The notes beneath the pieces are model-generated. The model was not told the origin of the DNA. It ran no database searches and saw only the letters and a list, made by a program, of their open reading frames with translations. From Desulfarculaceae bacterium (GTDB lineage Bacteria; Desulfobacterota; Desulfarculia; Desulfarculales; Desulfarculaceae): 64,000 nt of DNA. Both the position numbers and the translations under genes were made by a program. Numbering within the stretch: position 1 is the first letter of the stretch; each line of letters starts with the position of its first letter. Below are positions 22,016 through 23,142 of the stretch, piece by piece. Where the stretch lies: NCBI GenBank assembly GCA_021737145.1, contig JAIPEN010000002.1:186001-250000 (forward strand), given 5' to 3'.

Positions 22016-22480
22016 ATGGACGACCTGAAAAAGCTGGAGTTCCTCAAGGCCTTGGCCGAGGCGGGCGACAGCGCCAACATGTGGACCGCCGGCGAGGCGG
22101 TTGGCCTGGAGCACAACGCCATCGAGAACCTGGGCGTGGAGCTGATGAACCAGGGCTACCTGGAGATGGCCAGCCTCAGCGGGGGCGTGCGCCTTACCGA
22201 CAAGGGCAGCGAGGAGCTGGCCGGCGCGGACGGAGCCGAAAAGGCCCCGGACCTGGAGCAGATGCTCCAGCGCATCGTTGATGCCGGGCTGGACCTGGGG
22301 CCTGGCGCCAACGCCAACCTCACCGCCGACATCGCCACCCTCAGGGCCGCCCTGAAACGCAGCCATCCCCTGGCCCCGGTGGTCAAGGCCTGCATGGCGG
22401 CCATAGACGCGGCCCTGCAAATGGCGGGTGCGCCGGGGGAGAAGCTTCGCCCCCAACTGGCCGCGCTCAAACCGCAATAA
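22016..22480 (+). CDS. Winged-helix-like protein of unknown function
   Basis: A 154-residue protein. Residues 1-70 look like a winged helix: EFLKALAEAGDSANMWTAGEAVGLEHNAIENLGVELMNQGYLEMASLSGGVRLTDKGSEEL, with the final LTDKG wing as in MarR/ArsR-type domains. Residues 75-154 are helical, with no known domain. It may be a regulator or an adaptor. The start ATG follows CCAGGAG by about 7 bases; an in-frame start 54 bases upstream lacks such a site. It stands alone and faces a terminator that serves the opposite gene. Confidence 0.68.
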   Translation: MDDLKKLEFLKALAEAGDSANMWTAGEAVGLEHNAIENLGVELMNQGYLEMASLSGGVRLTDKGSEELAGADGAEKAPDLEQMLQRIVDAGLDLGPGANANLTADIATLRAALKRSHPLAPVVKACMAAIDAALQMAGAPGEKLRPQLAALKPQ

Positions 22481-22511
22481 AAAAACGGGGACGGGCGCCG
22501 GCCCGTCCCCG
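22481..22511 (-). terminator. Rho-independent terminator of the selenoprotein gene
   Basis: An 11-bp perfect stem (CGGGGACGGGC / GCCCGTCCCCG) with a 4-base loop. On the minus strand the stem is followed by TTTTTTATT. It lies 20 bases beyond the HesB-like gene's stop. On the plus strand there is no T-tract after the stem, so it serves the minus-strand gene. Confidence 0.85.
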
Positions 22512-22530
22512 CCAATGATTGCTTTCGAGT

Positions 22531-22863
22531 CTAGCTGCAGCCTCCGTCGCATCCAGAGGTGGAACAGCTCGCGCCGCTGCCCAGGGGGTTTTCCGCGTTC
22601 ACGGAGAAGCCCTGCTGCCAGCCGTTGTCCACGAAGTCCACCGTGACCTTCCCGCTGGTCTGGGAAAGTTCCTTGTCAATGAGATAGGTCAGGCCGTCCA
22701 CCTCATACTTGTCGTCGTTGTCCTTTGGTTCGTCCAGAACCAAGCGCAGGGAGGGACCGCCTCAGCCGCCGGACTGCAAGAAGACCCGCAGCGGTTGGTC
22801 CAACCCCTTTTCCTTCATAAAGCTCTGAATGGCCTCGCTGGCCGTGGGGGTTACTTCGACCAT
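22531..22863 (-). CDS. HesB/IscA-like selenoprotein (Sec at position 34)
   Basis: A 110-residue HesB/IscA-like protein read through an in-frame TGA at 22764-22762. It starts at ATG 22863 (AAAGGA upstream). The translation is MVEVTPTASEAIQSFMKEKG, then ...LRVFLQSGG-U-GGPSLRLVLDEP..., ending in SCSTSGCDGGCS. IscA-type proteins have Cys in the SGGCGG position and a C-terminal C-x-C-type motif; here Sec (U34) replaces the first Cys. A SECIS-like hairpin follows the UGA at 22725-22743. IscA-type proteins carry Fe-S clusters or iron; this Sec-containing branch occurs in delta-proteobacteria, with no firmly known role. Gene finders that treat UGA as stop would report only residues 41-110 or so. It ends at its own terminator and looks monocistronic. 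Confidence 0.88.
22725..22743 (-). promoter_or_regulatory. Bacterial SECIS-like hairpin
   Basis: On the coding (minus) strand, TTGGTTC-TGGAC-GAACCAA forms a 7-bp stem with a 5-base loop containing GG. It starts 19 bases after the UGA codon, inside the coding region, which is the spacing expected for a SelB-binding bSECIS element. One further pairing is possible past a single bulged A. Confidence 0.75.
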
Positions 22864-23046
22864 GATAAATCCTTTCTGCCCTGCTATCTGGGACCTTATC
22901 TTTACTGCTGACATAGAATATGGCAACTAAACTTGGCCTGTGCAAGTGGCGAAAGCAATTTTCGGAAAAATTCCTAAACACAAAAGGAAGGTCATAACCG
23001 CTGTTTTGGCGGGAAATGGCGCGGGGGAAGGAGGCGGAACGGCCAG

Positions 23047-23103
23047 ATATTAATTATAAATTATAATGACAAATAAAATTTAATAAATACTAATAAATAA
23101 ACA
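23047..23103. other. AT-only-like island in GC-rich DNA
   Basis: About 57 bases that are nearly all A/T (ATATTAATTATAAATTATAATG... and AATAAATACTAATAAATAAAC), between the enoyl-CoA hydratase stop and the promoter region of the selenoprotein gene. No ORF, no clear hairpin with T-tract. The 279-base gap 22864-23142 otherwise holds only a weak AT-rich stretch just upstream of the selenoprotein start. It could be a promoter UP element, a nucleoid-protein binding site or a rho-independent end for the hydratase transcript. Confidence 0.4.
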
Positions 23104-23142
23104 GTTCGGCCTATCTGCCGGCCGGTTGGGCCAAAAAACGGA

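Follow-up and report, generated by a model that had tools for sequence, protein, structure and literature searches.

A predicted IscA/HesB-family selenoprotein with a conserved bacterial SECIS in a Desulfarculaceae genome

HesB-like selenoproteins are an established family. A list published in 2006 contains, in the part of it available to us, 11 such proteins, several of them deltaproteobacterial (PMC1794560); the motif given for them in the accessible portion of a second source is UxGP (PMC13188914); and the available text of a third cites the identification of an archaeal member by mutagenesis and 75Se labelling, and describes a Methanococcus mutant, disrupted in its HesB-like selenoprotein, in which nitrogen fixation was not impaired (PMC11097638). 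The gene described here is, on sequence grounds, a further member of this family. An earlier note on the same DNA was right that HesB-like proteins containing selenocysteine (Sec) had been recorded in deltaproteobacteria, but it implied too much novelty, since such proteins were tabulated in 2006, as seen in the part of PMC1794560 cited above, and an NCBIfam model exists for them.

The gene occupies positions 22531..22863, minus strand, of the window (the whole stretch of DNA analysed, 64,000 nucleotides), which belongs to a genome of 4.03 Mb in 29 contigs. Its ATG lies at 22863-22861, an in-frame TGA at 22764-22762 is codon 34, and the stop TAG is at 22533-22531; reading through the single TGA gives MVEVTP...LQSGG-U-GGPSLRLVLDEPKDNDD...CSTSGCDGGCS, 110 residues. 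The earlier note had placed all of this correctly, including the claim that both flanks of the TGA form one protein, and direct reading and a sequence scan likewise bear out the Shine-Dalgarno-like AAAGGA (22870..22875, minus strand), 6 nt ahead of the ATG, and the terminator past the stop, a 13-bp intrinsic-terminator-like stem followed by a T run (22484..22513, minus strand). The 5′ neighbor, 279 bp away on the same strand, encodes an enoyl-CoA hydratase, and the 3′ neighbor is a convergent predicted gene lacking a Pfam match; no informative operon partner was found among these neighbors, and the gene seems to be a stand-alone unit. A promoter scan over 22440-23140 found no sigma-70-like promoter. 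The gap 5′ of the gene contains a very A+T-rich stretch of 60 bp (23041-23100).

Comparison of the read-through protein with IscA/HesB families, as the earlier note had suggested, gave matches over the cut-offs to NCBIfam NF038090 (IscA_HesB_Se; 119.3 bits, cut-off 85, covering profile positions 1-100 of 101) and to Pfam PF01521 (31 bits, cut-off 26.3, by hmmscan). A search of the window genome with PF01521 gave no hit, which we attribute to the prefilter of that search (0 candidates). The score against TIGR01911 (HesB_rel_seleno), 41.0 bits, is under the cut-off of 66.35, and we therefore assign the protein to the group modelled by NF038090, although its UGGP fits the UxGP motif of the literature HesB-like selenoproteins that TIGR01911 represents; the score against the IscA equivalog model, 43.2, is far under that model's cut-off of 150.6. 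The motif at the Sec/Cys site, GGUGGP, fits the family pattern GG[U/C]xGP, the closest named relatives are Desulfarculaceae, Desulfarculus, and unclassified deltaproteobacterial records, and with its near full-length match the protein looks like a typical NF038090 member, from which we saw no notable difference.

NF038090 matches were found in 220 of 395 genomes sampled from the phylum, and exceeded the cut-off in 167 of the 395. From the loci that were fetched, a subset of all matches, we collected 180 distinct homologues; all continue past the site, where 136 have UGA and 44 a Cys codon, so that the TGA of the window gene indeed falls at the family Cys position, as the earlier note had claimed. 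To judge from this column and from an ungapped alignment with the sequences of 1s98 and 1r94, which sets residue 34 against C35 of E. coli IscA (TSGCSG), the UGA at 22762..22764 (minus strand) has been retained as the counterpart of a Cys codon. Frame cutting was such that frames with an internal TAA or TAG could not enter the set of 180; the genome profile search, which reads through stops and counts them, found many matches with one TGA and, among the matches listed, none with TAA or TAG (each showing TGA or no stop), and all 34 rows of a further genome search show the same, 17 having one TGA and 17 lacking any stop, with no TAA or TAG. Substitutions 3′ of the UGA, relative to 6 close relatives, lie mainly at third codon positions. 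These observations, together with the conserved SECIS described below, argue against a truncated or dead gene in which the UGA is an ordinary stop or an inactivating mutation; such a reading can point to the listing under table 11, where the longest piece of the frame is 70 residues and lies past the stop, but we consider it extremely improbable.

On a tree of 118 proteins the site changes between Sec and Cys at least 18 times, 10 of these changes being forced by well-supported branches. Six other Sec genes in the collection (L029, L030, L032, L118, L131, and L134) are apparently terminated by a second UGA, and in these a single mRNA would appear to be read in two ways at UGA.

Beginning 19 bases past the UGA, where the earlier note had placed a 7-bp hairpin with a GG-containing loop, the window gene can form a stem of 7 bp closed by the 5-nt loop UGGAC (22725..22743, minus strand), and this hairpin is found in both the minimum-energy and the centroid structures. 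The bacterial SECIS rules given in the available portion of PMC13188914 are a loop of 3-9 nt with a G in the first two bases, a stem of 4-16 bp, and a spacing of 16-37 nt; the window hairpin lies within all of them (5-nt loop, G in the first two bases, 7 bp, spacing 25 nt). The same portion gives an energy of -7.5 kcal/mol or lower (PMC13188914); the 19-nt hairpin by itself folds at -7.1 kcal/mol and the 53-nt stretch at -13.4. Compared with shuffled sequences, the folding energy is not unusual (z +1.38 and +0.24). Random synonymous recodings of the window gene reach at least 5 bp in 11% and at least 7 bp in 1.2% of cases, so that one sequence taken alone is weak evidence for a SECIS.

The family provides stronger evidence: i) 135 of the 136 UGA genes have an in-register stem of 4 bp or more, versus 1 of the 44 Cys genes, with a loop that is mostly UGGAY, and by this comparison the hairpin is more than chance (the one UGA gene without it, L146, was scored with an 8-bp candidate in another register); ii) on 135 distinct 60-mers, stem pairs 1 to 5 are kept in 133-135 and the sixth in 106, while the seventh is kept in just 49, so that a 7-bp stem such as that of the window gene is not general in the family; iii) double-sided compensatory cells number 40, whereas 500 shuffles average 8.6 and never exceed 16, and sliding the 3′ arm gives 0-16, pair 3 being C-G in 101 and T-A in 33, and pair 2 T-A in 129 and C-G in 5; iv) among the 87 UGA genes (of 136) whose alignment needs no shift, the codons under the hairpin are frozen, with GCT for Ala42 in 64 of 66 and CTG for Leu43 in 86 of 87, compared with retention of the commonest codon in 28-72% at 28 conserved residues outside it; and v) on the tree of 118, stem and Sec are concordant in 8.9 of 10 independent pairs and discordant in no pair (sign test, median p 0.004). 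A further covariation, of Ala/Val with Glu codons in 83 UGA genes (64:0 versus 1:18, Fisher p 2.5e-17), was rejected as a per-sequence count that comes down to 2 changes on the tree, and its p value is not used. Given the compensatory changes and the near absence of the stem from Cys homologues, the hairpin is, on comparative evidence, a genuine bacterial SECIS, as the earlier note had called it.

The only Cys gene with a stem (L160, 5 bp, loop UAGAU) comes from genome G206, where selB does not exceed the cut-off. It likely preserves a fossil SECIS of a change from Sec to Cys, for which the accessible part of PMC1794560 offers a parallel in Desulfitobacterium HesB.

The earlier note had proposed, as a check on its reading, a search for selA, selB, selC, and selD, and all four are present in the window genome: selA at 611 bits, selB at 402, selD at 375, and a tRNA-Sec (selC) with anticodon UCA at 73.2. 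Of the two findings that would have counted against that reading, a genome lacking selB or selC and homologues that always end at the UGA, neither was made. A second of the 11 tRNA-Sec matches (47.1, cut-off 47) is better fitted by the general tRNA model, and matches 3 to 11 are all under the cut-off. The selD gene (L059:1501-2427, minus strand) carries an in-frame UGA of its own, within AAGUAAKIGP, and its product, selenophosphate synthetase, is likely itself a selenoprotein. Across the sample, selB exceeds the cut-off in 53 of the 56 Sec-form genomes that were tested, in 3 of 5 that have the Cys form only, and in 10 of 10 sampled genomes without an NF038090 match; selB is thus no predictor of the gene, and the Sec form rarely occurs without selB. 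The three Sec-form genomes in which selB is not over the cut-off (G009, G033, and G275) have assemblies split into about 40, 290, and 740 contigs.

The complete set of Sec genes also bears on the idea that the UGA is read as some other residue without SelB, through a changed code or leaky termination. An open frame, and nothing further, would fit such decoding; a SECIS that accompanies UGA and not Cys codons would not, and we give this idea a vanishingly small chance. Pseudogene and altered-code readings of the window UGA are accordingly both rejected, on the homologue column, the SECIS, and the Sec machinery, and the UGA is almost certainly decoded as Sec. The gene would be transcribed as an apparently single-gene unit; SelB and the Sec-tRNA (UCA) would decode UGA34, aided by the hairpin at +19 to +37; and read-through would yield the 110-residue protein, where termination at the UGA would leave a fragment of 33 residues.

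What would such a protein do? An AlphaFold2 model built with 66 family sequences has a mean pLDDT of 82.5, with residues 96-110 under 50, and its best PDB matches are IscA (1r94, Foldseek E 3.1e-8), SufA, and other IscA-like proteins, so the window protein is, by prediction, IscA-like in fold. It thus has in common with the A-type carriers IscA, SufA, and ErpA both the fold and the position of the reactive residue, Cys35 of IscA, which we take to be a ligand residue. Classical A-type carriers have three cysteines arranged as C...CxC; where IscA, SufA, and ErpA have Cys35 and a CxC tail, the window protein has Sec and the tail C100-x4-C105-x3-C109 (22537..22566, minus strand), and since it lacks CxC we call it A-type-carrier-like and not IscA. 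Across 66 aligned sequences C105 never varies, and C100 and C109 are each at least 90% conserved; CxC occurs in the tail of 65 of the 136 UGA members and 20 of the 44 Cys members, and UGA members have 1 to 4 tail cysteines, 115 of the 136 having 3.

We favor, with a probability of roughly 0.88 for the explanation as a whole, a Sec-decoded IscA/HesB-family protein acting as a variant A-type carrier. Sec34 and the flexible tail with Cys100, Cys105, and Cys109 would bind Fe or an Fe-S cluster, which may then be handed on to anaerobic Fe-S enzymes, and the selenolate might serve as a more easily oxidised or a more labile ligand. The carrier role for Fe or an Fe-S cluster, considered separately, is a good deal less secure; it is a role we judge probable. 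Against the explanation as a whole stand the tail without CxC, the lack of an informative operon partner, and the unimpaired Methanococcus mutant. Its serious rival is selenol/thiol redox chemistry, or the handling of sulfur or selenium, on the IscA fold, with Sec34 cycling with a tail cysteine or binding a metal or metalloid. The cysteines of the tail and its missing CxC would suit such a role; DsrR, an IscA-fold protein, is within the ten best PDB matches of the model; and a redox function is presumed for many uncharacterised selenoproteins, according to the accessible portion of PMC13188914. Yet Sec occupies the very column of IscA Cys35, and 11 of 43 Cys paralogues adjoin genes of the Hdr type, a group rich in Fe-S domains; we therefore hold a redox or sulfur-handling role to be possible but rather unlikely.

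Neighborhoods were scored for Hdr adjacency by phmmer with six seeds, taking the longest same-strand ORF ending no more than 260 nt upstream. Of the 178 genes whose upstream sequence is long enough, 16 have an Hdr/Mvh-like gene as their same-strand upstream neighbor. These are 5 of the 135 Sec genes, three of them in one family and one of them (L214) with a neighbor that is a short piece and may be only ferredoxin-like, versus 11 of 43 Cys genes, of which six are from the genus of the window and two from one genome. The upstream genes of the Cys paralogues are HdrB/C-like, MvhD-like, and HdrA-like (loci L168, at G000:C16:46926-57225, L169, L170, L184, L154, L157, L158, L162, and L173). The second copy in the window genome is such a case: a Cys form (G000:C16:51926) that follows an HdrC/B-type gene of 442 aa at a distance of 81 nt. 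The sole background figure for Hdr adjacency is the 34 CCG-domain matches in the window genome. A neighborhood shared across the phylum was looked for and rejected: even the commonest neighbor cluster occurs at just 12 of 85 loci, and several of these are from close relatives.

Tandem HesB/IscA pairs, defined as HesB copies no more than 700 nt apart on one strand, were found at 23 of the fetched loci (L018, L019, L020, L027, L040, L044, L045, L046, L048, L063, L064, L153, L155, L156, L163, L165, and L175-L181), and all 23 combine a Sec gene with a Cys gene; the fetched loci contain no tandem of the Sec-Sec or Cys-Cys type. The Sec copy comes first except in L040, L044, L045, and L175. The tandems cluster in four family codes (14 in f41, nine of which are one genus, 4 in f1, 4 in f16, and 1 in f33), so that the number of independent cases is far below 23. 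Neither tandem Sec-Cys HesB pairs nor Hdr-linked HesB genes were the subject of a title or abstract among those listed in literature searches, and we do not claim that they are unpublished.

HdrB-like subunits have unusual clusters. It is conceivable, though we think it distinctly unlikely, that the family works through Sec and Cys partners maintained as pairs, either as a mixed dimer or as Se-replete and Se-poor versions, and that these would be dedicated cluster carriers for Hdr-type Fe-S enzymes, HdrB-like subunits included; in the window genome the general form would then be the Sec gene described here, with the Cys paralogue at C16:51926 as the dedicated one. The analysis confirms an easily missed gene and supplies clean comparative evidence for its SECIS, and the Sec-Cys tandems and Hdr-linked Cys paralogues suggest candidate partners of HesB-like selenoproteins.
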